The notes beneath the pieces are model-generated. The model searched no databases. It worked only from the letters and a program-made list of their open reading frames with translations, and had not been told where the DNA came from. The position numbers and the translations under genes are program-made. Positions 19,016 to 59,453 of a DNA stretch of 64,000 bases are shown piece by piece (the first letter of the stretch is position 1; each line of letters begins with the position of its first letter). The stretch is from Gautieria morchelliformis (lineage: Eukaryota; Basidiomycota; Agaricomycetes; Gomphales; Gomphaceae): assembly GCA_015179125.1 (NCBI GenBank), contig WHVA01000125.1:62001-126000 (forward strand), written 5' to 3'.

Positions 19016-19966
19016 TACCAACCACTCCTCCTCTACGTCCACCCTACTCGCTGTTTGCTCCATCCTCCGAACTGCTATTCGCTGCTCGCGCATTTCGCCA
19101 GCAGGCACGCCATCAAAAATGATTGATACCATTCACCTGGCATGATGGTTCATCATTAGCCCCATCATCTTCTTAATCCAACCCCATTGGGTGTTCGTAT
19201 GGCCAAAGTGCGTTCGCAGGGTGTTCCTTCCATAGGTCGTGTGGGATCAACCCAGTAAACGAAGAGTCCGTGCAGGGTAGCGTGTATGTGGGTCCCAAGA
19301 CATGGTTTTGTCCATAAGTGCCTTCGCCCCCTTTTTACTCTCTGCCGTTTCATGTTCACATTCTTCCCTCACTCTATTGTATGTTTATTCCATCTACCTA
19401 GTATCATGACTGCGCACCCCTATCCAACCCTGACCTGTGACGGCCTTTTTCCTATTCGCTGATGCCCTATGAGCAGTCGATATAAGTAGTTTACATTCAC
19501 ATGTATATTCTCCAGTTCAATTATCATACGTCGTCCATCTTGTGCAAACTTGACCTCGCTGTGATCATCGTCTTGAGCCTCTCCTTGAAGATTTCTATCT
19601 TCGACCAGCCAAGGACTTAGGCATCACTGGTGAGTTCTCATACTTCATCTTCGTTACCTTAGCCTCCAAACTACTTTCTGTGCTGTTGGCGAAGGGCTCT
19701 GAAGGAGCACCTTCGCCAGCGAAGGGACCGTCGAAACTTAGACAGCCCTTCTGCAATATCTTGCACATTACGTCGTCAAGTGCTGCGAGCTATTTTGCTA
19801 CGACTGTAGATAGGGCGAGCCCCGTTCGGGCAACCCTCTTGTTCCATGAACATTCATCGGTTCACCTATTCGCCGAACGGCATAATCATTCGCACAAGTT
19901 ATTCGGGCATTCGCTGTGTTCATTAATACACGATATTAACGCCTGAAAACCAATCTTGACACCCTG

Positions 19967-22351
19967 GCCAGGGACATCAGTGGCACGACGAGAAATGTCC
20001 AGGACTTGCTGACATAGTTAGAGGATCCAATGGACGTGAAGAAGAAAAAGATATATAATTTATAGTAGTAGGATCTGGAGCAGAACATCGAAACTCAGGC
20101 TTTGGCTCATAAGACAACAATTGTGACTCGGTGAGTACGTGTCTCCACCAGGAGTTTCAAGTCGCACCCCAGGCAACAATGTGACTTACATAAGGTATAC
20201 TCAACCCTAAACGCTGCCCGGAGCGGTGCCACAGCTGCCAAGCCGAGGAGCAAGAAGAGTGGAAGGAATGGAGGCAGGCTGAACAGAAGGTAGAGGCATG
20301 CTACTCAGGCCCCCATCTGGCAATTGTCAACGAGAGCGAGGGCACCAACAAAGGAGCTGTGGTTGACCCCTTGGAAACTCCAGACCCTGAACAAGCCCGC
20401 CTTGCAAGTCTGTTGCAGGAGGGAGACCACTTTCTCTATATGGACCTACCCCCTGAGCCTGAACCCCAGGATATCTGAGTGGCAACCATGATGTCCCAAC
20501 ACCTTGCTGAGGCTTCCCAGAAGTATGCCAAGGCCGAGGCCCAGATCCTGGAGTACCTGTGGGGCTTCGAAGAGGTCTTCACCAATGAGTCCTTCAACAC
20601 CCTGCCAACTCAGAAGGTCTGGGACCATGCGATCAAGCTTGAGCCTGGGCCCAAGCCAACAAATTGCAAGATGTATCCGCTCTCTCCCTCGGAGCAAATC
20701 AGACTGGATGACTTCCTGCGGGAAACCCTCCATACCAGGAGGATCACCCCATCGAAGTCCCCAATGGCATCCCTGGTCTTCTTCATCAAGAAGAAGGACA
20801 GGTCCCTCTGGCTAGTACAGGATTACCGAGCCTTGAATGCAATCACAATCAAGAACCGGTACCTGATCCCACTCATCTCTGAGCTCATCAACCAACTCCG
20901 AGGGGTGAAGTACTTCACAAAACTGGATGTCCAATGGGGCTTCAATAATGTCCAGATTCAGGAAGGAGATGAGTGGAAGGCTGCCTTCCACATGAACCGA
21001 GGTCTGTTTGAACCTTGGGTTATGTTCTTCAGCCTTACAAACAGCCTGGTGGCCTTCCAGACAATGATGAACAATGTTTTCCAAGACATAATTATGGAAG
21101 GTGTCATCTGCGTGTACCTTGACGATATCCTCATATTTACAAAGACACTCTCAGAACATCGGGAAGTCATACAACGGGTCCTAGAGAGGCTTCGGGAATA
21201 CAAACTGTTCCTTAAACCTGAGAAATGCAAGTTTGAGAAAACCCGAATCAAATATCTTGGTCTCATTGACTCAGAGGGAGCAGTAGAGATGGACCTGGTG
21301 AAGGTGAAGGGTGTCTCAGAGTGGCCTACGCCTTGGAACTGGCACGAAGTACAGTCCTTTGTCAGCTTTGTAAACTTCTACTGTCAGCTCATCCAGGACT
21401 TCTCCCACCATGCTTGGCCCCTCTTCTACCTGACCAAGAAGGATGTCCCATGGATCTGGGCCAAAGCTGAGCAAGCCACCTTTGACAATCTGAAGCAGTT
21501 GAGCACCTCAGCTCTAATCCTCATATTCCCAGATGACATATGCCTTTTCTGAGTGGAAGCCAACTCGTCTGATGCGGCTACTGGAGCTGTACTGTCCCAG
21601 CAGTCTCAGCACAATAGAAATAGCACCCGATCATCTACTTCTCCAAAAGCCTGGGCCTTGTCAAACAGAATTACAATGTCCAGGATAAGGAGATGCTGGT
21701 GATCATCCAAGCCTTGGAAGAGTGGCAGCATTTCCTGGAAGGAACCCACAGCCAAGTTGAGACCTGGATGAACCACAAAAACCTGGAGTACTTCCACACA
21801 TCCAAAAAGCTGAACTGGAGGCAGGCTTTGTGGTCCCTCTACCTGTCTTGGTTTGACTTTGAGCTGCACCACCGACCGGGAAGGTCCATGGGCAAACCCA
21901 ATGCACTGTCTTGGCAAGCAGACCATGACTCTGGGAGAGGGGACAATGCCGACCTCATTCTACTCCATCCTGAGCTCTTTGTGATCTGAACGCTCAAGGG
22001 GGTCATGGCCATTGGCGAAGAAGCTAAGGTCCTCCAAGACATCCATAGGGGTTTCTGAGATGGGGAGAACAAGGAGTCGGTGGTGAAAGCAGTGGAGGAA
22101 CTCCAAAAGGGGCATGCTGGCTCGGTATGATTAGTGGTCAGAAAAGGACAGGCTGTTACAGTTCTGCGGTAAGATCTATGTCCCAAATGTACACGACCTC
22201 CGACACTGGATCATGTCCCAGCACCCTGACACCCGAGTCGCTGGGCACACTGGGAAGTGGAAGATGTTGGAGCTGGTGGCGCGGAACTATTGGTGGCTAC
22301 AGATGTCAAGGAATGTCAGCCAGTGCATGAAGTCCGGTGACCTCTGCCTGC
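19967..22351 (+). pseudogene. GypD: gypsy Pol fragment (RT, RNase H, integrase start)
   Basis: A long frame (20479-21552) encodes a gypsy RT: SMASLVFFIKKKDRS, YFTKLDVQWGFNNV and the catalytic CVYLDDILIF near residue 213, followed by the connection region SFVNFYCQLI. RNase H follows in another frame to about 21990 (KNLEYFHTSKKLNWRQA, HHRPGRSMGKPNAL). The integrase zinc-finger region runs to 22350 and is cut at its CDLC motif by LTR-S4. Upstream (19967-20478) is degraded Gag/protease-linker sequence. It is closely similar to GypA. Stops and frameshifts make it inactive. Confidence 0.87.
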
Positions 22352-22825
22352 TGTCATGACTCATTTATTCGTGTATCCAGTTACCCCCATTTTCCCTTCC
22401 ATCCTTTCATCTATATGTTTGCCCCATTTGCTCTTGGCCAACTTTGCCGAATGACCATTTGCTACTCACATCATTCGCCAGTAGTCATACCATCAAACAC
22501 GATTGACATCCTCTAACCAGCATGATGGTTCATCACTGGCCCCATCACCTCCCCAATTCAACCCCCTTTGGGTGTTCCTATGGCTGGGATGCATTCGTGG
22601 GGCATCCTACCTGTCGATTGTGTGAGATCGACCCAGCAGACCAAGAGTCCGTGCAGGGTAACATGTATGCAGGTCTGAAGGTGTGTTTTCTTACATAGGT
22701 ACGTTTGTCCTCTTTCCTCCCCGTCATTTCATGTTTGCACTCCTTATTTCTATTGTATATGTGTTTCATCCATTTGTATCCCAACTACGCACCCCTATCC
22801 AACCCTGACTCACGACAGCCTCTTT
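22352..22825 (+). repeat. LTR-S copy 4, left part
   Basis: It begins TGTCATGACTCATT at 22352 inside the GypD integrase. The LTR is interrupted at 22825 by GypB, whose target duplication TCTTT occupies 22821-22825, and continues at 30810. Confidence 0.88.
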
Positions 22826-23507
22826 TGTTACGTATCGAGATTTCCACTAAGTCGGAACTGGAAAGGACAGCGGCTTCAACTTATAGGTTGCGCCCCCAAT
22901 GAACTATCGTCCTAGGTATTTCGGAAATGAGCCGGAAGTCGGAAAGTACTGGACCAGAGGTTTGGTCGGAACTTGAGTCGGAACTGAGGCGGAAAGCGGA
23001 AGACGGAGAGACTGAGATCGAGCTAGACTCGCTGTGCTAAGAACAGGAGATGGAGCGAAGGAAATCAAGTATCGAAGGTGATTATCTGATTGCAGAATAA
23101 CAGACATACATGAGGGGGTTTTTATACAAAGCGCAGAGCAACAAGTAATGGTGTTGTACTAAGCAAATTCCGGAGGAAGCGGAAGTCGAGTACAATGTGT
23201 GGGAACTAACTAATTGGGAACAATGGGACTACAAGGGGGGTTCAGGGTAAGGTAGAACAATGGCAAAGAACAAGGGGTCGGGAAATCATATCTGACAACG
23301 AACTACAAGGGTGACCGGATATATGGTTTTGATGGATGGCGAGGTGGGTCCGGTGGGTCCGAGTAATAGAGTCGAAAGAACAAGGGAAATGTACAAGGGG
23401 CGGAATGTCGGAAATGTCGGAGGGGCGGAACGTGTGGCGGAACTATTGGAGAGGCGGAATGTATGGCGGAACTGAGGGTCGGAAATCGGAAATGAACGGT
23501 CGTAACA
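22826..23507 (-). repeat. 3' LTR of GypB
   Basis: 682 bp with ends TGTTACG and CGTAACA. It contains 17 CGGAA and one TTCCG on the plus strand. I find no difference from the 5' LTR at 30123-30804. Confidence 0.95.
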
Positions 23508-23521
23508 GTATCTCCCTTCTA
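23508..23521 (-). other. Polypurine tract of GypB
   Basis: On the element strand AGAAGGGAGATAC abuts the 3' LTR start. The antisense gene begins about 110 bp away, so this small region serves both as PPT and as promoter-proximal DNA of that gene. Confidence 0.65.
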
Positions 23522-23629
23522 AGGTCGAGCCCCGCGAGACCACAAGTCGGAATCACGTGACCTGTGAACAAACGCGTCGGAGTTTGAAATATAGGCGGGA
23601 AACAAGACGCGTCTTCTGTTTAGTCCATC
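23522..23629 (+). promoter_or_regulatory. Putative promoter of the antisense gene in GypB
   Basis: The interval between the PPT and the ATG at 23630 holds an E-box-like CACGTGAC (23554-23561), a CGGAA at 23549, and an AATATA near 23587 about 40 bp before the ATG. Upstream regulatory sequence would be the 3' LTR itself, so transcription may be bidirectional from this end. Inference from position only. Confidence 0.4.
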
Positions 23630-24862
23630 ATGAGCACTCCAGTCGACTTCTCCAAAATGACCAGTGCTGAGATGAAAGCACACTTTGCTGACATGCTCGC
23701 GCAAAAGGAGTTGGCCGAAAAACGCGAGGCCGAGGAAGCGGCGCGGAAGGAGAAAGAGCGTCTGGAGGAGGAGCGCAAAGAGAAAGAGCGCGAGGAACAG
23801 GAGCGTCTGGAACGGGAGCGGAAAGAGAAGGAGGAGCGTGACCGCAAACGTCGCGAGGAGGAATCGCGCGTCCGCGAAGAACAGCGGAAACGGGATGCGG
23901 CCCAAAAGGCTGCGGAAAACAAGGCCGTGGCGGAGAAAACGGAACAATCCCGGGTGAGTCGGAAAGGTTCTGAGCCTCATCCCGAGACTGACTGAAAAAA
24001 AACTTGGTAGAAAATAATCGTCGAATCCGATTCCGAACCGGAGTCGGAAGACACGGCGGAAAACACGCCGTCTCCTGAGGGGAAGGGAAAACAACAGGAA
24101 GTAGTTCCTGTTGTGAACCTTGTGGCGGATCGGAAAAGGAGGGCGGACGAATTTCAACAGGCCAGGAAGAACAAGATGGCCCGCATTGTCGACCTCCGGG
24201 AGTTGGGGCCGGAGAATCCCGCGACCCGGAAACGGAAGACAAGGGACGGGGAAGAAGAAAAGGCGCCCTGTGACACCTGCGAGGTAAAAGGACTAGAATG
24301 CGTCTGGTCAGAAAATCCGCGGGAAACCGCCTGTGAACGGTGCCGCGACAAGAAGAGGCGGTGCGTCGTGGACGGCTGTTCCGCGAGGGTGGAGCGGAAA
24401 AGGCGGAGAGTCGAGACCGAGGGGCCAGAAACCCCTAAGTCGAAACCAAGGTCGAGCGGGAAAAAGACGGCGGAAAGGGTTCCGGCGACCGGGAAGGCTG
24501 ACATGTCGCCTCTGCTCGACATTGCAGAGTGTCTGAGGGGTATCCGGAGATCCCAGCGCGGGATTCGGAATACGCTCGAGGAGATGTCCGCGGTTCAACA
24601 GCAACAGCTGTTGAGCTTCCAGAACCAGATGACGGTTTTGTCGACGGTTGTGGAGCAGATCAAGCGGGAGTTCCAGTGGCGGAACAATATGCTCCGGGAA
24701 CGAATGGAGTGGCGGATGCAGGAGGAGGATGGTGTGGAAGCGGGTCCGAGTCAGGTGGTGGATACGAGGGTGGAGACAGAGTTGGTGAGTGTGCCGATGG
24801 GGCATGCGGAAGAGGGTGCGGAAGCGGAGAAGGAAGAGGCGGAGACGATGAGGGAGGAGTAG
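23630..24862 (+). CDS. Antisense accessory gene of GypB: Zn(II)2Cys6-like protein
   Basis: Two exons, 23630-23953 and 24011-24862, joined across a 57-nt GTGAGT..TAG intron in phase 0, give 391 residues. Residues 15-105 are an E/K/R-rich probable coiled coil; a basic patch (DRKRRADEF, ARKNKMAR) follows at about 148-166; then six cysteines at 195, 198, 205, 216, 219 and 226 in the spacing CX2CX6CX10CX2CX6C, that of a GAL4-type binuclear zinc cluster, with KKRR before the last Cys. A second heptad-like region lies near 280-345 and the tail is acidic. The gene faces gag-pol and ends 123 bp from the pol stop. The product is likely a nuclear DNA-binding protein, possibly dimeric. Family membership is by motif only; capture from a host regulator is inferred. 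No GypA or GypC copy here has it. Confidence 0.85.
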
Positions 24863-24985
24863 GGGTCGAATAACTTGTAACATAGTTTCTTGAAGTGTCG
24901 GAAATCATAATGGAAAATTAGTCGGAAATGTGTGTGACTTAAGAACCGTAAGAAATGGGGGTATCGGAAGTGGGGTCGGAATTGA

Positions 24986-27900
24986 CTAGGGCGCGGAAAC
25001 GGGGCCAGGCTTATCAGGATATGACTTGTGAAAGTCAGAGACGAGGTCAGAGGCGTGGTCAAGTTCCGTGGCGGAAATCCACGAAGTCTCTTCGTCAGTG
25101 TTTTCATAGCCTGCCCACTTGACTAGGTACTGGAGTTGGCAGCGGTATCTTCTGTCGAGCTTGGAGTTGAGAATTTCCGAAATCTCATATTCCGGTTCTC
25201 CGTCAATGACGACTGGCGGAGGCGGAGGTTGTTCTCGATTCGGAATTGTATTCGGAACTGCGGGTTCAAGCATGGAGACATGGAATACCGGATGTACTGC
25301 GCGCATATTGTCAGGAAGTCTGAGGGTGAAAGAACGACTGCCGGCCTTAGCGATGATCTCGTAAGGACCGAGGTATTTCTCAGAGAGTTTCTTCGAGGGG
25401 CGAGTGGTGCGGAAGTTTTCCGCTTTGACAAAGACTTTGTCGCCAATCTCGAATGCCGGTTGCGGAAGGCGTTTCCGATCGGCGGAAGTTTGGTATCTCT
25501 TCTGGGCAGCGGTAATGTTCTCTCGGAGGTGCTGGTGAAGGTCGTCAAGTTCCACAACGAAATCTCGGGCTCTTGCAGAGGCGAGGTCGCGTTCGGGGTG
25601 GATGGCGAGATTCGGGTGGTAGCCCTTGTTGGCGTAAAAGGGTGAAATTCCGGTGGTGGCGGAAGGCGCATTGTTGTAGGCGAATTCCGCGAGTGGAAGA
25701 AGGTCGGACCAATTGCTATGTTGGTAGTTGCAATAGACGCGGAGATACTGCTCAAGGGTCTGATTAGTACGTTCCGTTTGTCCGTCTCCTTCGGGATGAT
25801 AACCGGAAGTGAAGTGGAGCTTCATGTCGAGAGCCTTTCCGAGGGTGCGGAAAAAGGATGACACGAATTCGGATCCACGGTCGGAAGTGACATGGGAAGG
25901 TATTCCGTGCTTGGAAAAGACGTGGAGCACAAAGAGCTGTGCGAGCAGGGCGGAAGTGATGGTGTCATAGGTCGGAATAAAGATGGACTGCTTTGTGAGG
26001 CGGTCAACGATCACTAGAATGGTATCATAGCCGGATGACTTAGGAAGTTTCTCAATGAAATCCATGGATATCGAATTCCACGGTTGTTCCGGGATCGGAA
26101 GTTGCTTCAGGAGGCCGTAGGGTTTGTGACGTTGAGGCTTGGCTCGCATACAGGTGGTGCATGACTTGCAGTAGTCTTGGACCATCGTGCGGAGGAGAGG
26201 CCAAGTATAGGTACGTCGGATTATGTCGAGGGTTTTGTTCTGGCCTTGGTGTCCTGAGAGCGGATGATCGTGGCTTTGCTGGAGCACGCGAAGTCGTAGA
26301 TCGTTGGTGTCCGGAACGTAAATCCGGGACTTGTACCGGAGAAATCCGTCGGAATCGAGGGACCATCCAGGACTGGTGGGGTCATCGAGGTGGGCTGCGG
26401 AGGTGGGGTCGGAACGGAGTGCGGATCGGATGTCGGAATGGAGAGACTCGGTGTCCATAATAATTGAGGCGCGGAGTAGCGGAAATTGCAATGCTGTGGC
26501 ACGCAGGGACGATGCCAGTTGCTCAGTAGAGAATACTGGGCGGAAATTGTGCGGATTAACGCTGGCATAGTCGCTACTTCCCTCTTTTGGGTAGACGTCC
26601 CAACGTCTGGTGAGCGCGTCGGGTTTTGCTCCGAGCTTTCCGGGGCGGAAGCGGATTACCATATTGAACTGTGAGAGATATTCAGACCAGCGGACTTGAC
26701 GGCGAGTCAAAATCTTAGTGGTTGCAAAATACTCAAGGTTCTTATGATCCGTTACAACGTCGATCGGATAAGTTGGACCTTCGAGGTAGTGTCTCCAGAT
26801 TTTGAAGGCTTCGAAAATCGCAAGTAGTTCCTTATCGTGGACGTCGTAGTTGAGTTCCGGGGCGGAAAAGGTGCGGGAATGAAAGGCGATCGGATGAATT
26901 TCTCCGTCGTCGGGTGAAATGATGGAAAGAATGGCGGCTAGCGCGTAGTCAGAAGCGTCGGTTTCGAGTACAAGTTGGGCATCAGGAATCCAGAAACCGA
27001 GTATGGGAGCCGTGGTGAAGGCCGATTTGAGAGCTTCAAATGCGGAACGGCATTCCGGAGTGAAATTCCATGGGGCACCCTTCCTGGTGAGACGCGTGAG
27101 CGGAACAGTAATGTCGGAAAAATTATAAATGAAACGCCGGTAAAAATTGGCGAAGCCAAGGAAAGACTGCACATCCTTAACACGTCGGGGTTCCGGCCAT
27201 TCTTGAATTGCCTTGACCTTGTCCTCTGCCATGGTAAGACCTGTTGGAGAGAGGATGTAGCCGAGGTATTCGACCGTGTCGCGATGCCATTCGCATTTCT
27301 CTGCTTTTGCATAGAGATGATGTTTGCGTAGACGGCGGAGTACTTCGCGGACATGTTCCCGATGTTTTTCCGGTGTGTCGGAATAGATGAGGATGTCGTC
27401 AATGTAGACTAGGACGCATACGTCGAGGAGGTCGGAAAATACGTCGTTCATGAATCGCTGAAAAGCGGCGGGAGCATTGGTTAGACCAAAAGGCATGACA
27501 GTCCACTCAAAAGCACCGTAGCGGGTGCGGAAGGTGGTTTTCCACTCGTCACCTTCCCGGATGCGGACAAGGTGATAAGCGTGCCGGAGGTCAATTTTGG
27601 TGTAGATCTTCGCCCTGCGGGGGGTGTCGAGTAAGTCGGAAATGCGCGGAAGCGGATATTTGTCCTTTTTAGTGAGGGCATTGAGTCCGCGGAAATCGAC
27701 GCAGAGGCGGAGAGATCCATCCTTCTTCTTGACGAAGAGGACCGGAGCGCCGTGCGGAGACAGCGAAGGGCGGATAAAGCCCATGTTGAGATGTTCATCG
27801 ACGAACTCTCGGAGAGTCAGGAGTTCACTTTGCGAAAGGGAGTAGATCGGTCCAAGGGGCGGAGATGCTCCTTCTTCCAATTCTATCTTCAAGTCGTAAG

Positions 27901-28693
27901 GTCGATGTTCAGCAGGTTTGTCGGCTTTGGCCTTATTGAACACGTCCGGGAAGTCACGATATTCTTCCGGAACTGAGCTCATGTCGACCGGGGCGGAAGT
28001 CGAGGCGGAACGAGCCTTGACTGAAGCCGAATCGGAGAGGTGAAGCTGGAAAACGGTCGTATCTTCTTGCCGTTGCAATACGCGGAAAGCGGTGGCGGAA
28101 ACGAGCGCAATTCGAGGAGCTTCGAGGGGCGGAGGTGCTAAAGCGGGACCGGAGTGCGGAACTGAATCCACGAGCGGAGTTGCAGAAGAGGCCTGAGCCA
28201 TCTTTGCGGACGACGTCGGAATAGACGGAAGTTGATCCGGGGTACGGAACTGTATTTGACCCAATGCCCAGTTAATCGACGGATTATATCGGGTGAGCCA
28301 ATTGTGTCCTAGTACAACGGAACAGCTAGCATCTAGCGGAGTAACGTAAAACGTAACTTCATGGTTGTCCCCAGTAGCGAAACGGATAGACAGATCCACA
28401 ACTTGGGAAATTCCCGTGTTGGAAGACCCGTCGAAAAGGCGGAGCGGAATAGTCGGAATATTGCGGGTCGGAAGTTTATGTTTCAAAACAAAGTCGGAAT
28501 CGAGGAAACAATGAGTCGAACCGGAGTCGACTAGTGCTGTAAACGGGGGTGCGGAAATGGTGTCGGAAGTGAGCGGAACAGAGAGAGAGTCGGAGGACGA
28601 AAGAGCGGATGCGTTGAGTTTAACCTCGTTTGTCGCACGAATGGGGTCAACACAGCCCTCAGCTCGTGCGGAGGCCGGAGGACTGCTGACTAT
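24986..28693 (-). CDS. GypB Pol polyprotein: protease, RT, RNase H, integrase, chromodomain
   Basis: The frame is open from the gag stop to 24986 without an ATG at its start, consistent with expression by frameshift. In order: protease with VDSGSTHCFLD near 28530; RT with FVKKKDGSLRLCVDFR and the active box YIDDILIY (about residue 361 counted from codon 28486); RNase H beginning DASDYALAAIL; integrase HHCC finger ending CKSCTTCMRAK; catalytic Asp in SMDFIEKLP, Asp in TSDRGSEFVS and Glu in GDGQTERTNQ; then a GPY/F-like segment (KYLGPYEII) and a C-terminal chromodomain (YLVKWAGYENTDEETSWI). All catalytic residues are present, so the enzymes should work. Chromodomains direct integration toward particular chromatin in related chromoviruses. 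Confidence 0.95.
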   Translation of the reverse strand: MVSSPPASARAEGCVDPIRATNEVKLNASALSSSDSLSVPLTSDTISAPPFTALVDSGSTHCFLDSDFVLKHKLPTRNIPTIPLRLFDGSSNTGISQVVDLSIRFATGDNHEVTFYVTPLDASCSVVLGHNWLTRYNPSINWALGQIQFRTPDQLPSIPTSSAKMAQASSATPLVDSVPHSGPALAPPPLEAPRIALVSATAFRVLQRQEDTTVFQLHLSDSASVKARSASTSAPVDMSSVPEEYRDFPDVFNKAKADKPAEHRPYDLKIELEEGASPPLGPIYSLSQSELLTLREFVDEHLNMGFIRPSLSPHGAPVLFVKKKDGSLRLCVDFRGLNALTKKDKYPLPRISDLLDTPRRAKIYTKIDLRHAYHLVRIREGDEWKTTFRTRYGAFEWTVMPFGLTNAPAAFQRFMNDVFSDLLDVCVLVYIDDILIYSDTPEKHREHVREVLRRLRKHHLYAKAEKCEWHRDTVEYLGYILSPTGLTMAEDKVKAIQEWPEPRRVKDVQSFLGFANFYRRFIYNFSDITVPLTRLTRKGAPWNFTPECRSAFEALKSAFTTAPILGFWIPDAQLVLETDASDYALAAILSIISPDDGEIHPIAFHSRTFSAPELNYDVHDKELLAIFEAFKIWRHYLEGPTYPIDVVTDHKNLEYFATTKILTRRQVRWSEYLSQFNMVIRFRPGKLGAKPDALTRRWDVYPKEGSSDYASVNPHNFRPVFSTEQLASSLRATALQFPLLRASIIMDTESLHSDIRSALRSDPTSAAHLDDPTSPGWSLDSDGFLRYKSRIYVPDTNDLRLRVLQQSHDHPLSGHQGQNKTLDIIRRTYTWPLLRTMVQDYCKSCTTCMRAKPQRHKPYGLLKQLPIPEQPWNSISMDFIEKLPKSSGYDTILVIVDRLTKQSIFIPTYDTITSALLAQLFVLHVFSKHGIPSHVTSDRGSEFVSSFFRTLGKALDMKLHFTSGYHPEGDGQTERTNQTLEQYLRVYCNYQHSNWSDLLPLAEFAYNNAPSATTGISPFYANKGYHPNLAIHPERDLASARARDFVVELDDLHQHLRENITAAQKRYQTSADRKRLPQPAFEIGDKVFVKAENFRTTRPSKKLSEKYLGPYEIIAKAGSRSFTLRLPDNMRAVHPVFHVSMLEPAVPNTIPNREQPPPPPVVIDGEPEYEISEILNSKLDRRYRCQLQYLVKWAGYENTDEETSWISATELDHASDLVSDFHKSYPDKPGPVSAP

Positions 28694-28699
28694 TTTTTT
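28690..28699 (-). other. -1 ribosomal frameshift site at the gag/pol junction
   Basis: On the element strand the heptamer A AAA AAA stands in the gag frame immediately before the TAG stop. Slipping back one base gives ATA GTC AGC and enters the pol frame, which is then open to the end. The heptamer fits the X XXY YYZ rule. I did not model a downstream pseudoknot. Confidence 0.8.
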
Positions 28700-30090
28700 G
28701 AATCCGCAGCGGGAACCGCTTCGGATTTCTCTTCCGTCTTTGCTGCGCGGCCCTTGGCCTTAGCAGCGGAGGCGGAAGCGCGAGTGCAGTCGCGAGCGAT
28801 GTGACCTCCTTTGCCACAGAAGAGGCAAAGGTTGTTGTCCATGCGACGCTGGCGTTCTACAGGGGTTAGTTTTCCGTCCTTCCCAAGTTTGTCGGAAAGA
28901 TCCGGGGTGCTCTTCCGGGCGTTGGTGTTAGAACCAGAGGCCTGGTTGTTCCGAGGGGTGTTGTTGTTGTTCCGGTTACCGGAGTTGGATCCGGAACTGT
29001 TGTTGCTGTTATTGTTTCCGGAGTTGGTGTTTCCGGAATTAGTCTTCTTCTTGTCTTTATCAGACTTCTTGTCGGAAGACTTGTCGTTCTTGCTCTGGGT
29101 GGAAGTTTCGCGAGCGATCTCGGAATGTCTTTCCCAGTAGCGTGAATCGATGGATTGAGCGAGGTTGCGGAGGTCGGTAAGGGTGGCGGGTTTTCCGACG
29201 CGGGCAATTTCATCCTTGATGCGGGATGGCAAGCCCATGTAAAACTGGCGTCGGAGTGCGGCTTCTCCCCATTGGACTCGAGGAGCGAGCTGCTGAAACG
29301 TGACGATATATTTAGCTATCTTATGAGTGTCTTTCATGCGAAGCTTATCGAGTTCGTTTTCCGCATCGGCTTCCATATCAAATGGTCCGAAGTTGCTGCG
29401 GAGTTCGGAAATGAAATTGGGGTAATCGTCGGCCCAGTCGACGAGAGCGAACGGATCCATGAGGGCGGGTTCGAAATAGTCGAGCGCCGTGCCTCGGAGA
29501 TAGGAAAGGGCATAATTGACCTTTCGTTCGTCGTCGGGAAAGGCGTCGGGACGATCACGGAAATTGAGTTGAAGCTGAACCAGAAATGGCTGGAGCTTCT
29601 TGGGGTCAGAACCGTCGAACTGATCTGGTTCGCGGACCTTAGTCTTGGGTCGTGGTGGTGCTTGGGCCGGGCGCTGGAGTTGTCCGGCTAGCATGGCGAT
29701 GGCTTGTGCAAGATCCGGAACTGGCGCGGGCGGAACTGGGTTGGCGGGATTCTGAGGTGGAATTGGAGGTGGAGGACCGCCGGGTGGGCCGCCATGAGGG
29801 CCGCCTGGAGGTGGTCCTGGTGGAGGTGGTGGAGCTGGGCGTCGGAATGACGCTGCTGTTTGTTCGCCGCTGCTACTCGTCGAATTCCCGTCGTAGTCGG
29901 GATTGTCGTCGGGATTAGCGTCGGGAACTTCTTCGAATCGTTGCGGAAAAGCATCGGAAAGCTCATCGTCGGCACGAGAGCTGCTGGAGGGTTCCGCGTG
30001 CCTTGGTGCTGCGGATCTAAGACTGCCAAAATAAGAGAGAGCTTCGACAGCTCCTGCTCGAGCTGAAGTAGCTGTGGTACGAGGAGGCAT
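28690..30090 (-). CDS. GypB Gag
   Basis: 466 residues from the ATG at 30090. A Ser/Asp-rich N-terminus and a long Pro/Gly-rich stretch (about 85-130) precede the Gag domain (about 150-335, with YALSYLRGTALDYFEP). A Lys/Asn/Ser low-complexity linker leads to one zinc knuckle CLFCGKGGHIARDC near residue 430. It would form the capsid and bind RNA. The frame ends TCA AAA AAA TAG, a frameshift site. The 5' leader from the LTR is only 32 nt. Confidence 0.95.
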   Translation of the reverse strand: MPPRTTATSARAGAVEALSYFGSLRSAAPRHAEPSSSSRADDELSDAFPQRFEEVPDANPDDNPDYDGNSTSSSGEQTAASFRRPAPPPPPGPPPGGPHGGPPGGPPPPIPPQNPANPVPPAPVPDLAQAIAMLAGQLQRPAQAPPRPKTKVREPDQFDGSDPKKLQPFLVQLQLNFRDRPDAFPDDERKVNYALSYLRGTALDYFEPALMDPFALVDWADDYPNFISELRSNFGPFDMEADAENELDKLRMKDTHKIAKYIVTFQQLAPRVQWGEAALRRQFYMGLPSRIKDEIARVGKPATLTDLRNLAQSIDSRYWERHSEIARETSTQSKNDKSSDKKSDKDKKKTNSGNTNSGNNNSNNSSGSNSGNRNNNNTPRNNQASGSNTNARKSTPDLSDKLGKDGKLTPVERQRRMDNNLCLFCGKGGHIARDCTRASASAAKAKGRAAKTEEKSEAVPAADSKK

Positions 30091-30109
30091 AGTGATAGTT
30101 ATCGGGTGG

Positions 30110-30120
30110 AATCAGATAAT
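30110..30120 (-). other. Self-primer binding site of GypB
   Basis: Two bases inside the 5' LTR, the element strand reads ATTATCTGATT. Its exact complement AATCAGATAAT lies in the LTR at 30378-30388, about 35 nt after the TATA box and hence at or near the 5' end of the transcript. This is the layout of Tf1/sushi-type self-priming, where the RNA's own 5' end primes reverse transcription. No tRNA match was evident. Confidence 0.72.
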
Positions 30121-30122
30121 AC

Positions 30123-30804
30123 TGTTACGTATCGAGATTTCCACTAAGTCGGAACTGGAAAGGACAGCGGCTTCAACTTATAGGTTGCGCCCCCAATGAA
30201 CTATCGTCCTAGGTATTTCGGAAATGAGCCGGAAGTCGGAAAGTACTGGACCAGAGGTTTGGTCGGAACTTGAGTCGGAACTGAGGCGGAAAGCGGAAGA
30301 CGGAGAGACTGAGATCGAGCTAGACTCGCTGTGCTAAGAACAGGAGATGGAGCGAAGGAAATCAAGTATCGAAGGTGATTATCTGATTGCAGAATAACAG
30401 ACATACATGAGGGGGTTTTTATACAAAGCGCAGAGCAACAAGTAATGGTGTTGTACTAAGCAAATTCCGGAGGAAGCGGAAGTCGAGTACAATGTGTGGG
30501 AACTAACTAATTGGGAACAATGGGACTACAAGGGGGGTTCAGGGTAAGGTAGAACAATGGCAAAGAACAAGGGGTCGGGAAATCATATCTGACAACGAAC
30601 TACAAGGGTGACCGGATATATGGTTTTGATGGATGGCGAGGTGGGTCCGGTGGGTCCGAGTAATAGAGTCGAAAGAACAAGGGAAATGTACAAGGGGCGG
30701 AATGTCGGAAATGTCGGAGGGGCGGAACGTGTGGCGGAACTATTGGAGAGGCGGAATGTATGGCGGAACTGAGGGTCGGAAATCGGAAATGAACGGTCGT
30801 AACA
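30123..30804 (-). repeat. 5' LTR of GypB
   Basis: 682 bp, ends TGTTACG and CGTAACA, followed by TSD TCTTT at 30805-30809. Contains the promoter and the self-primer sequence. Confidence 0.95.
30378..30423 (-). promoter_or_regulatory. GypB core promoter and transcript 5' end region
   Basis: On the element strand TATAAAAAC (30415-30423) is followed about 35 nt later by AATCAGATAAT (30378-30388). The spacing places the start of transcription just before that sequence, which matches the primer-binding site. Confidence 0.65.
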
Positions 30805-30809
30805 TCTTT

Positions 30810-31070
30810 CCTATTCGCTGATATCATATAAGCATTTGGTATAAGTAGTTTACATTCGCATGTATATTCTGCAGTTCAATTATCATACGTCTATCTTGTG
30901 CAACTTAACCTCACTGTGACTATCGGCTTGAGCCCTCTTCTATAGACTACTACCTTAGACCAGAGGAGGGCTTGAGCACCACTGGTAAGTTTCCATACTT
31001 CACCTTCACTACTTTAGTCTTCATACCATTGTCGGTGCTGTCGGCAAAGGGCTCCGAAGGAGCACTTCTG
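30810..31070 (+). repeat. LTR-S copy 4, right part, truncated
   Basis: The LTR resumes after GypB (CTATTCGCTGATATCATATAAG) and stops in the middle at about 31070 (GGAGCACTT), where a GypC LTR begins. The rest of this LTR is not found on the far side of the nest. Confidence 0.8.
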
Positions 31071-40830: not shown

Positions 40831-41525
40831 TGTTACGTATCGAGATTTCTGCTAAGTCGGAACTGGAAAGGACAGCGGCTTCAACTTATAGGTTGCGCCC
40901 CCAATGAACTATCGTCCTAAGTATTTCAGAACTGAGTCGGAAGTCGGAAAGTACTGAGCCAAAGGTTTGGTCGGAACTTGAGTTGGAACTGAGGCGGAAG
41001 GTGGAAGACGGAAGGCGGAGAGACTAAGATCTTGCTAGACTCGCTGTGCTAAGAACAGGAGATGGAGCGAAGGAAATCAAGTATTGAAGGTGATTATCTG
41101 ATTGCAGAATAACAGACATACATGAGGGGGTTTTATACAAAGCGCAGAACAACAAGTAATGGTATGGTACTAAGCAAATTCCGGGGGAAGCGGAAGTCGA
41201 GTAGACAATACGTGGGAACTAACTAATACGGAACAATGGTTGACAAGGGGGGTGCAGGGTGGGGTAAGTACAATGGCGAAGAACAAGGCGGGTAAGTACA
41301 ATAGGCATCGGAAGAAACGGAACTACGGAAATGGTATCTTGCTGTGCTCAGGGTCGAGTACGGGGGCCGGTATCTGGAGGTGGCCAGGGGTACTGAAAGA
41401 ACAAGGGAGGAGGGTTGCGGATATTGCGGATGTCGCGGATGTCGGAATAGAGTCGGAGGTGGCATGGGGGTGGCGTGGAGGGTGTGCGGAGGTGGCGGAG
41501 ATGGTTGATCGGAACAGTTGTAAGA
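40831..41525 (-). repeat. Solo LTR of the GypB family
   Basis: 695 bp, starts TGTTACGTATCGAG; the other end reads TTGTAAGA where GypB has TCGTAACA. CACGG flanks it at 40826-40830 and 41526-41530. It shares the CGGAA-rich character but differs from the GypB LTRs at many positions, so it is an older insertion. Confidence 0.87.
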
Positions 41526-41530
41526 CACGG

Positions 41531-42074
41531 CGCATCCCCATATTGTATCGGGATGCCTCCTCTATAATTCAGGCTGTCTCAAAGAGTTGCTCTATCGAGC
41601 TGCTCTTGGCATTATAGCCCTTTTTGAGGACCTTGCTGCACAGCATCTCGCCCAGCACCGACATGAACCGTCTCCGGAACGTGTAGTTGTCTGGCGGCTG
41701 TATCATATGCACCGCGTGTTTCGTGAGCTCGTTCAGCATCTCCTGAATGGTCTTGGTGCCCTGCATGACCGCGTCAAATTTATTCAATGCGTGGTGGTAC
41801 GTCAGTGTGTGCAGGAACCTTTTTTGGAGGCCCTGCATCACTGTTTCCAGGGTCCAACTGCGGACCTGGCGATCGAAGCGTTCTACGTTTTGAAGGAACC
41901 ATTCCTGGGCTTTGCCGGTCAGGTGAGTGCCCACGTAGCCGACCTGCATGTCGATGCTGGTTGGCCCTAGGAGGCAGTTCATTTTCAGCCATATTAAGAT
42001 GGCTGCGATGAAGATTTCAAACTCTTCGAGGTCAGATCCCCCGGCGTATGGCTCAGGGTGAGCCAGCTTTATGC
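41531..42074 (-). pseudogene. GypC2 Gag core fragment
   Basis: The frame 41569-41982 encodes the Gag core (MQVGYVGTHLTGKAQEWF, LNKFDAVMQGTKTIQEML) and is nearly the same as GypC1 51640-52000. It ends where GypA is inserted. Confidence 0.85.
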
Positions 42075-42565
42075 TGTAAGGGCAACCCCTGGCTGGCTGT
42101 GGAGATCACACTACCACACAACTGACAAGGGGAAATCCGAAGTATGTATAAATGAACAGAGTATACAAGAGAGGGGATTCTCACCTGACAAGGGGAAATC
42201 CGAAGAGAAAAGTCTAAGGATCCCCAATGTCAGTGAGCCTGTATTATACTATGCTACGCAGCCAGGGACAACACTTGGCACCCGCCATCAACCCTGCATC
42301 CCCCTGACCTCCCTGACCCTTGATTGACCCTTGATGCCACCTACTATACGAGTTGCTTGACTTCTGATACTGTTCCAAGGGCGGAAGTCAGAAATTGGAG
42401 TGGAATTGGTAAAGCGAACAGAACTGGTGGAAGTTCTGCCAGAAGCGGAATCATTTCCGAAAGCGGAGTCGGAGATGGAATTGGAACCGGAACCGGAGTC
42501 GGAAATGGAGTCGGAACTGGGTGTGGAGTCGGAACTGGAAATGGACAACAGGGTGTCCCCTGACA
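42075..42565 (-). repeat. 3' LTR of GypA
   Basis: 491 bp, plus-strand ends TGTAAGGGC and CCCCTGACA. The U3 half is a run of GGAGTCGGAAATGGA-like repeats (42380-42550). Confidence 0.92.
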
Positions 42566-42580
42566 TCACCCCCCCTCTAG
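42566..42580 (-). other. Polypurine tract of GypA
   Basis: Element strand CTAGAGGGGGGGTGA directly precedes the 3' LTR, and the same tract is seen at 6597-6610. Confidence 0.75.
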
Positions 42581-43089
42581 CGTGCTGCGTCCTCGAAGCA
42601 CAGGACACGAGGGATTGAAAGGCCAGTGAGCAGATTCGGCGAGGGGCACCAGGGTGTGTCCCGTAGAACTTGTGGAGTTTGTCTGGAGCGGAAACATCTT
42701 GCTCCGGGACTCACGAATTCTCCTCATACCCATACCCTTCCCATTTCATGAGGAATTGGAGTCATCCTCGCACAAACCGGCTGTCCAGGATCCGTTCTAC
42801 CACATAGTGCTCTTCCCCATCTACAATTTCCTGTGGAGGTGGCAGACGAGCCTTCCAACCTGGAATTGGGTCCTCAAGCGTAGGGAGTAACTTCACCACG
42901 TTGAAGACGGGGTGGAGGCGGGACATGGACATCGGAAGTCGGAGGCAGTATGCATTCGGTCCAACCTCCGCATCACTGTGAAGGGCCCAAGGTAGCGGTG
43001 GGCAAGCTTCTGCGAAGGGCGTGTGGTGCGGATGTCACTTGCATCTAGATACACCTTGTCTCCAACTTGGTACTCCGGGGCAGGAACCC
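42581..43089 (-). pseudogene. GypA integrase C-terminus and chromodomain
   Basis: The frame from 43089 down reads VPAPEYQVGDKVYLDASD and RYLGPFTVMRRLDR (GPY/F motif). A chromodomain follows (VVERILDS near 42790) but is frameshifted before its conserved WVPE-like part. It joins in sequence to 53882 once GypC1 is removed. Confidence 0.82.
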
Positions 43090-43866
43090 TGTAAAGGATG
43101 TCGATCTTAGGACCTTGTATCACAAGGGCACTGCAGAACTTGACCAATGAGTGGTATTCTGAATGCTACGTAGTGACAGGTAAGAGTAAGATACAATGGG
43201 AACCGCTGGCCAGTTCCCACGCATAAACTATACAGACGGTCCCTAAGGGGCTCACTGGGATTATGTAATAACTATTGTACATGTAGATACTGTAAGAACT
43301 CGGCCTTTGGCCGGTTACTTACCGGTATAACTTTCTTCCGAGCCCGAGCCTTGTGATACTCGTGCCCGAGTACATATGATTGTTATCCTGCGCCCGAGCC
43401 TGAGCCAGAGCTCATATCTGACCTTGATCCCATGCCCGTATCCCCTTAGTTACTGATTCCGCTCCATCACGCATCATTCATATATTACCTCACCCTGACC
43501 TCGCTCCCCTGACCTCGCCCTGACCTCCACTAATATGTTCACCCCTGACTCCTACCCTCGCTCGTATATAAACCCCCCTGTATGCATTCCTACTCCTTAG
43601 TCTGAAAATCAACTATCGTATAACTTCGATCCCTAGTTAGATTCTAAGCCTTGCCTCTTAAGCCAAACCTCGCCTCTTATTCGTTTGCCTCCGAAGTTGG
43701 GACTCGTGCATAGGGTCGGCACAGCACATAAGCTGAAGCCTAGTCCCTCTCCGACTTCCCCATCCAAACCTCACCCCGTAACCTCGGACCTTACCTCGGG
43801 TTTCGCCCCCGACCTCGGTCAACCTTACGACGGATCGTATCGTAACAGATACATAGGTTATTTACA
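43090..43866 (-). repeat. 3' LTR of GypC1, containing a solo LTR
   Basis: Plus-strand ends TGTAAAGGATG and GGTTATTTACA. Without the insert 43291-43847 and its 5-bp duplication the length is 215 bp, equal to the 5' LTR. Confidence 0.9.
43291..43847 (+). repeat. Solo LTR (LTR-D) inside the GypC1 3' LTR
   Basis: 557 bp, starts TGTAAGAACTCGGCC and ends TATCGTAACA, with GATAC at 43286-43290 and 43848-43852. A TATA box CGTATATAAACC lies near 43563. GCCCGAGCC repeats occur near 43335-43410. No other copy in the window. Confidence 0.9.
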
Positions 43867-53661: not shown

Positions 53662-53876
53662 TGTAAAGGATGTCAATCTTAGGACCTTGTATCACAAGGG
53701 CACTGCAGAACTTGACCAATGAGTGGTATTCTGAATTCTACGTAGTGACAGGTAAGAGTAAGATGCGATGGGAACCGCTGGCCGGTTCCCACGCATAAAC
53801 TATACAGTGGGTCCCTAAGGGGCCCACTGGGATTATGTAATAGCTATTGTACATGTAGATACATAGGTTATTTACA
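53662..53876 (-). repeat. 5' LTR of GypC1
   Basis: 215 bp, plus-strand ends TGTAAAGGATG and GGTTATTTACA, with a GGGAACCG..CGGTTCCC hairpin near 53770. Unusually short for a gypsy LTR in this window. Confidence 0.92.
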
Positions 53877-53881
53877 AACCC

Positions 53882-55085
53882 GGCGTTGGTTGTAGTACCT
53901 TGCCATGTCATCCTTGGCCTTTGCAAGGGCCGACTTGGCTTCCGAAAGGGTGGAGTCCATGCGGTCTTGGAACTCATTGACTGTCTCGAGTCGGGACTCT
54001 GCCTGGAGTGGCTCAAAGCCCATCCGCAGGTGTTGTCCGGAGTCCAGCATGAAGGGAGTCTGTTGTGTGGCGGAATGTACATGGTTGTTGTATTGGAATT
54101 CTGCCAGTGGAAGTAACTCATCCCAGTCATCCTGCCTCTCATTAACAAAGAGGCGGAGATATTGCTCCAATTCCTGATTGACTCGTTCCGTCTGTCCGTC
54201 ACCCTGTGGATGGTATGCTGTGGTGGTAGCCAGCTTTATGCTGAGCAGGCAGTAGAGGTCCCGAGTCAGTTCTGCGACAAACTGCGGACCTCGGTCAGAA
54301 ACAACTTGCTTCGGGAGCCCATGCAACTTCCAGACATGCACAAGGAGCAGGCGGGCCGCTCCGAGCGCTGTGATTGTCGTGTGCGTCGGAATGAAGTGGG
54401 ACACCTTGCTTACCGAGTCCACGACATTCATCATCGCGTCGTAGCCATGGGACTCTGGGAGTTCAATGATGAAGTCGACACTGATGGTGTCCCAGTGGGA
54501 TTCTAGAATCGGGAGTGGAACAAGTTCTCCGACGGGCACATGTCGTTGTGCTTTGGTTCAGAGACAAAGGTCACATGTCTTCACATACTGTCCAATGTAG
54601 CAGGACATCTGAGGCCACCAGTAGTTTCGAGCCACTAACTCCAGCATCATCCACCTGCCAGCATGCCCAGCAACCCATGTGTCATGGTGCTGGGACACAA
54701 TGCGGCGGCGGAGGTCCGCCCCACCTGGAACATAGACCTTGCCTCTGAAGTGGAGCAGCCCATCACGTTCCGACCATTCCGCTGCCTGTACAGACCGTGA
54801 GTGCCCTTTCTGAAGTTCCTCCACCGCCTTCACCACTGACTCCTCCTTCTCTCCATTCTGGTACTGCCTCCGGATGTCCCGGAGCATTTCCGCTTCCACC
54901 CCAACTGCAGTCACTCCTTCAAGGGCACAGATTGCAAAGAGACTTGGGCGGAGTAGTGTCATATCAGCGTTGTCTCCGCTTCCACTTCCATGATCCGCAT
55001 GGCGGGATAGGGCATTGGGATTGCCCATGGTGCGGCCGGGGCGGTGGTGGAGCATGAAGTCGAACAGGGACAGGTGTAGGGACCA
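53882..55085 (-). pseudogene. GypA integrase
   Basis: Zinc-finger part at 54558-54760 (H..H, ending KTCDLCL), a TGA stop near 54556, then the core: Asp in TISVDFIIELP, Asp in VVSDRGPQFVAEL, Glu in QGDGQTERVNQELEQ. The following frame continues to YYNQRRV, where GypC1 is inserted. Confidence 0.88.
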
Positions 55086-56618
55086 CCGTGCTTATCGTCG
55101 GTTCAACTTCTTAGATGTGCAGAAGTACTCGAGGTTCTTGTGGTCTGTCCAGATCTCGAATGCGCATAGAGCACCCTCGAGGAAGTGTCGCCACTCCTCC
55201 AGTGCTCGGATGATTGCCAGCATCTGCTTGTCGTGGATCTCATAGTTCCGCTCGACCGGACTAAGGCTTTTAGAGAAGAAGGCAATCAGATGCCACCCCC
55301 ACCATCTCCTGATGACTGTTGTGACAAGACCGCTCCGGTAGCTGTGTCGGAAGAATCCGCCTCGACTCGATAAGGGCGAGAGTCGTTGGGAAAGATCAGG
55401 ACCGGGGCAGAAGTGATCAGCTCCTTGAGTTTGTCAAAGGAGGCTTGTTCTGGCTCTCCTCACCACCATCCAACCTCTTTCTTGGTGAGGTCGAAGAGGG
55501 CACACGCATGGCAGGAGAAGTCCTTGATGAACCGCCAGTAGAAATTGACAAACCCAATGAAGGACTGGACCTCCTTCTTGTTCCGCGGCACAGGCCAATC
55601 CGATACACTGGAAACTTTGACCGGGGACATTTCCACCTTTCCTTCCGACACAATCACCCCAAGATACCCTATCCGTGTCCGCTCAAATTTGCACTTTTCC
55701 GGCTTGAGACACAGGTTGTACTCCCAGAGCCGTTCCAGCACTCTCCGCACGACCTCCTGATGTTCCGACATTGTTTTTGTGAAGATGAGGATGTCATCGA
55801 GGTAGATGCAGACAACCCCTTCTGCTATCACGTCACAGAAGATGTCATTCATCGTCATCGTCTGGAATGTAGCAGGACTGTTGGTGAGGCCAAAGAACAT
55901 GACCTGTGGCTCAAAGAGTCCTCGGTTGGTGCGGAATGTGGCCTTCCACTCATCTCCCTCCCAGTTCCGAACATTATTGAAGCCCCAGCGGACATCCAGC
56001 TTAGTGAAGTACCTTGCCCTGCGGAGTTGTGTGATCAGTTCGGAAATTAATGGAATGGGGTACCGGTTCTTGATCGTGATCGCATTCAAAGCCCGGTAAT
56101 CCTGCACAAGTCTGAGCGACCCATCCTTCTTCTTGATGAAGAACACCGGAGATGCCATGGGTGACTTGGAGGGGCAGATCCTCCCTGTATGGAGGTTTTC
56201 CGCAAGGAATGCATCAAGCTCTACCTGCTCCTTGGGTGACAGCAGGTAGACTTTGCAGTTGGTGGGCTTTGACCCAGGCTCCAACTCGATGGCATGGTCC
56301 CACAGCTTCCGTGAAGGCGCATCAAATGACTCCTTGGCAAAGACGTCCTTGAACTCCCGCAGGTACTCCGGAATTTCCGGCTCCACTTTATCATGCTTCC
56401 TGGAGGCTTCAGCAAGGCGTTGCGAAATATTTCTGGTAGTGCGGATGTGTTCCGCTTCCAGTGGAAGGTTTACATACAGCAAGCGCTCCCCCACCGCCAG
56501 AGTGTCTTCCGGGCCGAGTCGGATGACGTCGGAGTCGGAATCGGAATCAGAATTGGAAGTGGGACCCAGTTCAAATTCCGCTTCTGAGTCTTCTTCTGTA
56601 AGCAGTGGATGGGGGCCA
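55086..56618 (-). pseudogene. GypA reverse transcriptase and RNase H
   Basis: The frame 55460-56618 includes KLWDHAIELEPGSKPTNCKV, SPVFFIKKKDGSLRLVQDYR, YFTKLDVRWGFNNVR and the active box CIYLDDILIF, followed by SFIGFVNFYWRFI. RNase H continues in other frames at 55086-55420. The same protein family is encoded by GypD at 20479. Tg-AA copy 2 cuts the N-terminal side at 56618. Confidence 0.9.
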
Positions 56619-57682
56619 TGTTGTGATAAATGCAACTATCCCATTTCAAATCATTTATATATAAAAGAAACTAATAAAGAAAGAAAAACAAGAAAAAGAT
56701 CAAAAAGAAATAGAAATGACACTTATGATAGACGTCGGCGCAGACGACGATCACATGAATTTACGACATGCTATCTTACCCACAGATCGGGTAAGGTACA
56801 GAGGTTCGGGCATCGACCACGTGCGGTCGATCAGGGATAGCGCGCCTATCGAGTGATGGCATCGGCCATGACGTCGACAGGCGCCAGGCCATAGGCACCG
56901 AGGGGTGCGGGCACCAAACGCCGCAGAGAACAATAGACTGCGCAGGAACATAGGGTGCTGTGGAGCGACTTGAGAATGTCATCCGCAGTACACATACTCA
57001 ATTAGCTGCCCCACAGAAAGGGCACAGGGACAGCGGCCCCATCACCAAGCCTAGCATTTATGCTAGGCAGGGCAGATTCAACTCCATTTTTCTATTTGAA
57101 CTCCATGACACGTCTGACTGACTACTATCTTAACATCATGTGGACAGGGGCTTTGTATACTAGGTACAGATCTCTATTCCAAAGCCCAGACAATCCTAAC
57201 ACCATCCCCATCACCCCATGACTTTATGACTATAAATTAGTCACCCCTTTGTTACAAGTAGCTTTTCGACCCATCTGTCCAATATCTTGAACACTAGTAG
57301 TTACTATTAACATAGTATTAATAGCTAGTACAAATGTATGGACGAAATTATCCAGAATTGATTATTTTACCCCCTGAAACTACTGTAGTCTTGTTTGATA
57401 GCTACAGAGTCCAAACCTTGATAGTTTATTCCAAATCTTCGTTGAGGGTTCACTATCACTGCTTACTCTATACTACCTTAAAAGCAAATGCTTTTGATTT
57501 GGTTATCCCTTGGATTGACACCATTCTTCTTTCGACACAGTCACGTGACTCTCATTCATCAGTGTCGGACGCACCTCGAAAGGCTTAGTCAGCACACAGA
57601 AGAGAGGCGAACACAGTGGTTCCAGTCACTGAGCAATAGATTCTATTTGTTGAAAGGCACTAATTAACATCTTAATCCAAAA
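56619..57682 (+). mobile_element. Tg-AA element, copy 2
   Basis: 1064 bp, TGTTGTGATAAATGC to TTAATCCAAAA, with GGCCA at 56614-56618 and 57683-57687. Its hairpin at 57049-57068 has changed on both arms (GCCTAGCAT/ATGCTAGGC) and still pairs. Confidence 0.88.
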
Positions 57683-57687
57683 GGCCA

Positions 57688-58345
57688 GATCGACATGTCC
57701 GTATGAGCCATTCGGTCTTCCGCTGCTCCTGGCGCTCCTTCCACACTTCCGCCCAGCACATGTGACACTTGGCTGGGCATCGACTCATCAGCACCTTCCG
57801 AGTCTGCCAATTGATCTCCGGGTTGTGCTCCTGAAGCCAGGTAAACCCGAGGATGATGTCTTGCTTCCCCAGGCTGGTGACTGCAAAGGAAGTGCGTTCT
57901 GTGTGTCCATCGTAGTGGAGAATTGTGTCTACTATCTCGGTGATGGACCCTGCCTCATTGGGGATTCCATCCACATTGAACACTGGGATTGCACGTTGCA
58001 ATTTCCGTGTGGCCAGTCGGTTCCGTTCCACATAGTCCCAGTCTATAACCTGACCAGTGGCCCTGCAATCGACAAGGGCGGGCCCGGATTGACTTCCGCC
58101 GTATCTGTCATCTGGATCTCCACCTTAATGACTAGTGACTTGGGGCCCGGGGTGGCAGGAACAACATAGCGCTTCGGGAGGCGTCTCTCCCAAGGGCGGA
58201 TGCGGGATGGACGGGGTGTCGGATTTGGTTTTTGTGTGACCTTATCCGGTGGGTCTGTATGAAGTGAGGGGAGTGGGGGCTTTTCATTCTCTACTTCAAG
58301 ACAGGCAAACCGGTTATGTACAGGCAGCAGGGGCACACATCTCAC
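57688..58345 (-). pseudogene. GypA protease region
   Basis: Two frames (58043-58345 and 57688-58031). A retropepsin-like fold is suggested by RAIPVFNVDGIPNEAGSI and KQDIILGFTWLQEHNPEINW, the usual second half; the active-site segment lies near 58060 where the frame shifts. CRATG stands where D-S/T-G is expected. Confidence 0.75.
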
Positions 58346-58954: not shown

Positions 58955-58959
58955 AGCTC

Positions 58960-59448: not shown

Positions 59449-59453
59449 AGCTC

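Follow-up and report, generated by a model that had tools for sequence, protein, structure and literature searches.

A Predicted Spliced Antisense Gene for a Zn2Cys6-like Protein in a Ty3/gypsy Chromovirus of Gautieria morchelliformis

Introduction

What does a gene that reads against gag and pol do inside a retrotransposon? The question is raised by a 64,000-nucleotide stretch of the genome of the fungus Gautieria morchelliformis (contig WHVA01000125.1, positions 62,001 to 126,000; hereafter, the window), where a Ty3/gypsy element carries, between the end of pol and its 3' long terminal repeat (LTR), a two-exon frame on the opposite strand. A preliminary description had taken the product for a Zn(II)2Cys6-like regulator with two coiled coils that may control transcription of the element or of the host. 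We propose that the antisense gene encodes an accessory, self-targeting regulator that would bind CGG sites and either control transcription of the element or counter its silencing. Its expression, binding and effect are what we infer from sequence, and we put the probability of this reading at about 0.58.

Results and Discussion

The Antisense Gene and Its Copies

The gene occupies positions 23630 to 24862 on the plus strand of the window. Exon 1 (23630..23953) encodes 108 amino acids, charged and coiled-coil-like by eye. It is followed by a 57-nt intron (23954..24010, GTGAGT...TAG, with a branch-like CTGAC at 23988-23992) and by exon 2 (24011..24862), which encodes 283 amino acids and ends in a stop codon. 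The coordinates, orientation, GT-AG intron and 391-residue product of the preliminary description were all reproduced. A search of the window with the 391-residue protein matched this place only, in agreement with the earlier remark that other gypsy families of the window lack the gene.

Copies were sought in this 122-Mb assembly, to which all copy counts below refer. The antisense protein matched at least 106 places (106 of 1083 candidates were scored), and a DNA search with the gene matched at least 40 (scored from 477 candidates). Removal of eight repeats (L013-L018, L020 and L064) from 70 loci (L001-L070) left 62 distinct copies, the window copy included; since copies were ranked by match, intact ones are over-represented. 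No splice solution was obtained for L055, and the frames of some other members of this larger set are short or broken. The branch site, cysteine spacing and LTR motif were examined in 41 intact copies, codon positions in 39, and regional ratios of nonsynonymous to synonymous divergence (dN/dS) in 38, L004 with its shifted 3' end being left out; 33 copies had usable pol and LTR sequences.

Splice-site counts were taken only from 31 DNA-aligned copies (the window copy among them), the scoring of the larger set having favoured GTGAGT donors. The donor is GTGAGT and the acceptor CAG or TAG in 31/31, and the introns are 53-57 nt long; a branch-like CTNAY is present in the introns of 39 of the 41 intact copies. 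Twenty-two of the 31 yield a spliced frame of 378-425 amino acids, four have no in-frame ATG, and others contain premature stops. In-frame exons were imposed by the splicing scripts, so that exon lengths in multiples of three carry no evidential weight. Eleven of the 31 copies have an intron whose length is not divisible by three, and nine of these, L004 included, still yield a spliced frame of 382-395 amino acids. The slot also recurs, with an LTR upstream of the gene in 38/38 intact copies and a usable pol downstream in 33 of the 38; contrary to one refuting outcome named in the preliminary description, related elements of this genome do carry the frame in the same antisense position.

Selection on the antisense gene was estimated by the Nei-Gojobori method in 528 pairs of 33 copies. 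Mean dS was 0.650, dN 0.111 and the median ratio 0.171; the corresponding values for the 3' end of pol in the same number of pairs and copies were 0.144, 0.019 and 0.106. By region (38 copies), dN/dS was 0.071 for residues 151-194, 0.086 for the cysteine cluster (residues 195-231), 0.18-0.19 for the coils and 0.43 for the tail, constraint being tightest in the cluster and the basic stretch preceding it and loosest in the tail. Variability at the three codon positions was 0.09, 0.06 and 0.21 (39 intact copies), highest at the third, and the frame is retained over deep divergence, in copy pairs at dS near 0.9. The purifying selection that had been suggested as a check is seen across the copies of this genome, and neutral decay is not. 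A neutral passenger was rejected on the dN/dS of ~0.17. The idea that this stretch holds a sense frame of env type was rejected too: the three reverse-strand frames of exon 2 stay open in 2, 1 and 0, respectively, of the 39 intact copies. Comparison of the copies thus indicates that the antisense gene is real, spliced and selected.

The same data bear on the idea that antisense RNA, not protein, is the functional product, acting in RNA-level copy control or as a silencing trigger. Retroelement antisense transcripts can act as RNA, according to the available part of one review (PMC7264820), but a dN/dS of 0.17, the codon-position pattern and a frame that is kept only via splicing where the intron length is not divisible by three make this very improbable here. 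Passive capture of a host gene without a role in the element seems to us scarcely credible: the frame has been retained over deep divergence, many copies have it at the same place, and the selection result disfavours such a history. What capture has in its favour is that exon 2 had no relatives in protein searches, which would leave room for it. With residues 180-391, none of 868 candidates matched at E 0.001, and with an exon-2 alignment none of the best 7996 candidates did so at E 0.1, both searches needing shared five-residue words and similar length. One sequence search of the PDB was without matches and another gave only two unrelated ones (E > 2); scans of IMG/VR and NCBIfam returned nothing useful for the antisense protein.

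The Cysteine Cluster and the C-Terminal Helix

The cysteine cluster is encoded at 24269..24364 (plus strand). Its cysteines, at residues 195, 198, 205, 216, 219 and 226, have the spacing CX2CX6CX10CX2CX6C, just as claimed earlier, and this exact spacing is kept in 38/41 intact copies. Zn(II)2Cys6 domains follow the rule CX2CX6CX5-12CX2CX6-8C, within which the antisense protein falls (PF00172). A pair of lysines after the fifth cysteine is invariant in 16 chosen exon-2 sequences; in GAL4, the lysine corresponding to this position contacts CGG. Zn_clus was the sole entry at E up to 1 in a Pfam scan of the antisense protein. The PF00172 profile itself gave 17 host-type matches in the genome.

Other results weigh against a DNA-binding domain of the usual kind. 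The window copy scores 16.8 (whole sequence) to 18.4 (domain) bits, below the Pfam Zn_clus cut-off of 21, and of five other copies one (L028, 22.3 bits) exceeds it, so that five of the six tested lie below. The two halves align with Zn_clus in swapped order, the first with positions 16-37 (17.3 bits, E 0.0051) and the second with positions 1-13 (9.3 bits, E 1.7). Folding of the cluster domain, one of the checks proposed in the preliminary description, gave a low-confidence model; the 18 weak Foldseek rows obtained with that model were all entries of Zn2Cys6 type, judged in part by title. As judged from spacing, Pfam alignment and copies, the cluster is GAL4-type in spacing but is not a canonical Zn2Cys6 domain; we describe it as half-swapped and Zn2Cys6-like. 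If its link to the motif described below holds, a half-swapped zinc cluster of this sort would broaden the definition of the Zn2Cys6 domain.

A long C-terminal helix, encoded at 24506..24736 (plus strand; residues 166-242 of the exon-2 model), contains five ten-residue blocks with a predicted local distance difference test score (pLDDT) above 90, and is probably, as modelled, a dimerisation coil. Of the two coiled coils described earlier, the C-terminal one is backed by this high-confidence helix, while the N-terminal one is visible by eye only. The earlier view of a Zn(II)2Cys6-like regulator holds for the spacing and the long helix, and is weaker than first put for the cluster itself.

The long charged coiled-coil-like stretches can also be taken differently, as belonging to a selected protein that is a nucleic-acid chaperone or particle component with a part in RNA packaging or reverse transcription. 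The weak Pfam score and the poor domain model would suit such a protein, and count against a regulator. The GAL4-type spacing in 38/41 copies, the peak of constraint at and just before the cluster, and the 18 weak fold rows of Zn2Cys6 type do not, and we regard a chaperone as unlikely.

A Dense CGGAA Motif

A regulator of this type should have sites, and CGG is the half-site expected of Zn2Cys6 proteins. In the whole element the pentamer CGGAA is present 117 times on the plus strand and 32 times on the minus strand, as against 57 and 64 times in the other 56 kb of the window. In the 3' LTR (22826..23507; the element is on the minus strand) there are 17 plus-strand occurrences, compared with 1.8 expected, and one on the opposite strand, a density of 25/kb as opposed to ~1/kb outside the element. 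The LTRs of 41 copies have 20.6 plus-strand occurrences per kb, while the flanks of 40 have 1.3/kb.

The motif also fills coding DNA. TTCCG, the reverse complement, is found 48 times in pol (15.4 ± 3.1 expected), a count reached in 0/2000 synonymous shuffles; TTCCC, TTCCA, TTCGG and GTCCG were not enriched in pol by the same procedure. Of the 1024 pentamers, only the overlapping TCCGC outranks TTCCG in pol, and none does in gag. Within pol the motif is found on either strand and in each of the three codon phases, and the commonest spacing between neighbours is 12 bp. Codon usage as its cause was rejected by synonymous shuffles of pol, and for the family described next as well. The element is filled with CGGAA, for the most part in a single orientation, beyond the needs of its codons. 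Three further stretches of the window with gypsy sequences (C, D and E) and one host-like frame showed no such enrichment.

A second gypsy family, family B, is known from one copy in two pieces (L071 and L072, G000:C460) and a broken copy in the window (42067-43290 and 53662-60266). Its pol is 41-45% identical to that of the gene-bearing element in two long matches. With the LTR part excluded, family B pol has 40 CGGAA (10.2 expected) and 24 TTCCG (7.9 expected), neither reached in 1000 shuffles, and these are its first and second pentamers. No six-cysteine frame was found in the family B copy, whose gag adjoins one LTR and whose pol frame enters the other. Upstream of that copy, on the plus strand of L072 at 287-793, lies a frame with ITCQACSNQKVSCSF and basic residues, possibly another cysteine-cluster protein to judge from its sequence.

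Family B speaks against a simple link of motif and protein: the motif is not confined to the protein's own family, as it would be in a system of the VANC type (see below). A strict pairing of the motif with the gene was rejected, since family B has the motif and lacks the gene in the copy read. The enrichment could instead serve a host factor or a signal at the RNA level, unrelated to the antisense protein, and the strand bias of the LTR could suit an RNA signal. We hold this to be not quite an even bet. CGG is, after all, the half-site that a Zn2Cys6 protein would be expected to use; stretches C, D and E and the host-like frame are without enrichment; the motif occupies three codon phases and both strands of pol; and family B may use the antisense protein in trans.

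An Exchanged Cassette

The gene is more divergent than the element around it. In 494/528 pairs its dS is higher than that of pol, and it follows neither pol (rho 0.04) nor LTR (0.04) divergence, while pol and LTR are correlated with each other (0.63). Weak links to the LTR (0.25) and to pol (0.19) are confined to the 5' half of the gene; the corresponding values for the 3' half are 0.04 and -0.03. When the 10 copies of type L001 are compared with the 8 of type L039, the gene shows a mean distance of 0.275, pol one of 0.025 and the LTR one of 0.035; the respective distances within the two types are 0.027 and 0.018 for pol and 0.037 and 0.029 for the LTR. In four pairs across these two commonest types, identity per 60-bp step is 88-100% in the LTR and leader (one step at the LTR end of L005 excepted), 62-91% from the ATG to the pol stop, and 92-100% in pol. 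The two appear to be old cassette types in a near-identical backbone, bounded near the ATG on one side and the pol stop on the other. A faster mutation rate was rejected as the cause of divergence, given the rho of 0.04 with pol dS and a gene dS that in the L001 group is mostly below pol dS. By these comparisons the history of the cassette is largely decoupled from that of pol and LTR, which we attribute to recombination between element lineages.

Proposed Mechanism

The self-targeting regulator would be made and used as follows. The 3' LTR is separated from the antisense ATG by a leader (23508..23629, plus strand; alignment of 20 chosen copies) with a candidate polypurine tract of the element on the minus strand and a conserved stretch containing CACGTG and CGG, a candidate antisense promoter. 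Antisense transcription would begin inside the 3' LTR, next to it, or in this conserved leader, and the transcript would then be spliced. Retrotransposition would leave the intron in place, since in the sense genomic RNA it is not in a spliceable orientation. The product would be a nuclear protein, acting as a dimer held together by the long C-terminal helix, with the half-swapped Zn2Cys6-like domain binding CGG half-sites. It would coat elements of its own family, LTRs and internal region alike, and in this way control transcription or counter host silencing. The cassette would be swapped between element lineages by recombination, with the DNA-binding part staying nearly constant.

A wider version of this mechanism, with CGGAA scattered by selection through LTRs and coding DNA, family B filled with the same sites and borrowing the protein, and cassette types that are long-lived and resemble an immunity region, is one that we consider rather doubtful.

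Relation to Known Systems

Antisense additional open reading frames (ORFs) between pol and the 3' LTR occur in plants, in the parts available of PMC7264820 and PMC11963269: gene23 of Grande, RIRE2, and Retand with TRP28 (PF04195). The accessible text of the former, a 2020 review, gives their function as unknown (PMC7264820). The fungal gene shares with them orientation, slot, recurrence in copies and a suspected nuclear or DNA-binding product (same sources). It differs in being carried by a fungal chromovirus, in its comparison-supported intron, in the Zn2Cys6-like cluster and in the dispersed CGGAA; unlike Retand, the antisense protein had no match to TRP28 (PF04195) at E up to 1 in the Pfam scan. 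A figure legend in PMC2864245, the portion available, marks an 'add. ORF' of unknown function, its orientation not readable there.

HBZ of human T-cell leukaemia virus 1 (HTLV-1) is antisense, spliced and started in the 3' LTR, with a product that acts on transcription, as stated in the accessible part of PMC1459196. The fungal gene is likewise antisense and, from sequence comparison, probably spliced; its promoter and effect are conjectural, and HBZ is a basic leucine zipper protein where the antisense protein has a cysteine cluster.

The anti-silencing VANC proteins of Arabidopsis VANDAL transposons recognise short motifs that are dense and in one orientation in their own element (PMC5735166; motif-array self-targeting also in PMC10398659; both available in part); the VANC21 motifs are mainly in non-coding DNA and rare in other transposable elements (PMC5735166). 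The gene-bearing element likewise combines an encoded protein with a dense same-orientation motif (117 vs 32; LTR 17 vs 1). In contrast to VANC, CGGAA also fills coding DNA and is common to family B, and the likeness is one of motif layout, not of sequence comparison. GAL4 and PPR1 (PF00172) resemble the antisense protein in cysteine spacing, basic residues by the cluster and a nearby coil, and differ from it in the order of the halves, in the sub-threshold Pfam scores of 5/6 copies and in not being retrotransposon-encoded.

Among the literature matches listed, by title and start of abstract and with subscription literature mostly uncovered, none described a fungal retrotransposon with a Zn2Cys6 gene on its antisense strand. 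The gene differs from known antisense slot genes in host kingdom, protein type, intron evidence and the motif in coding DNA. Its function is testable through three handles: an intron that, compared across copies, shows the frame to be coding, a rearranged but still recognisable domain of a DNA-binding type, and a candidate motif with a statistically strong footprint in coding DNA. If the link between protein and motif holds, the system would be a convergent counterpart of VANC in a retroelement, and a second family may be making use of the antisense protein in trans.

The Element and Its Setting

The element spans 22826..30804 (7979 bp, minus strand). Its two LTRs (the 5' LTR, delimited by LTR comparison, is at 30123..30804) are 682 bp long and 100% identical to each other, TCTTT target duplications flank both ends, and gag and pol each have a long open frame, so the earlier statement that it is structurally intact stands. 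The gag frame (28690..30111, minus) has Pfam matches to capsid and a CCHC knuckle, and the pol frame (24986..28759, minus) to protease, reverse transcriptase, RNase H, integrase and a C-terminal chromodomain; with the LTR pair and target duplication, every feature of a Ty3/gypsy chromovirus was found. The element is young and recently inserted. It is nested inside an older LTR-type repeat (19021-22825, 30805-31065 and others) that occurs several times in the window at 72-89% identity.

The protein database that gave no relatives of exon 2 or of the C-terminal part does contain relatives of pol: nine of the 120 rows listed come from named Agaricomycetes, including Leucocoprinus, Agaricus, Trametes and Lentinula. 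One pol relative, P0003, is 91% identical and lies on a 7.8-kb ENA contig. Elsewhere in the window, a 460-bp match (90%, 40831-41288) to the LTR of the gene-bearing family lies within a stretch, 40831-41527, that interrupts another element and is, from this match, probably a solo LTR of that family.
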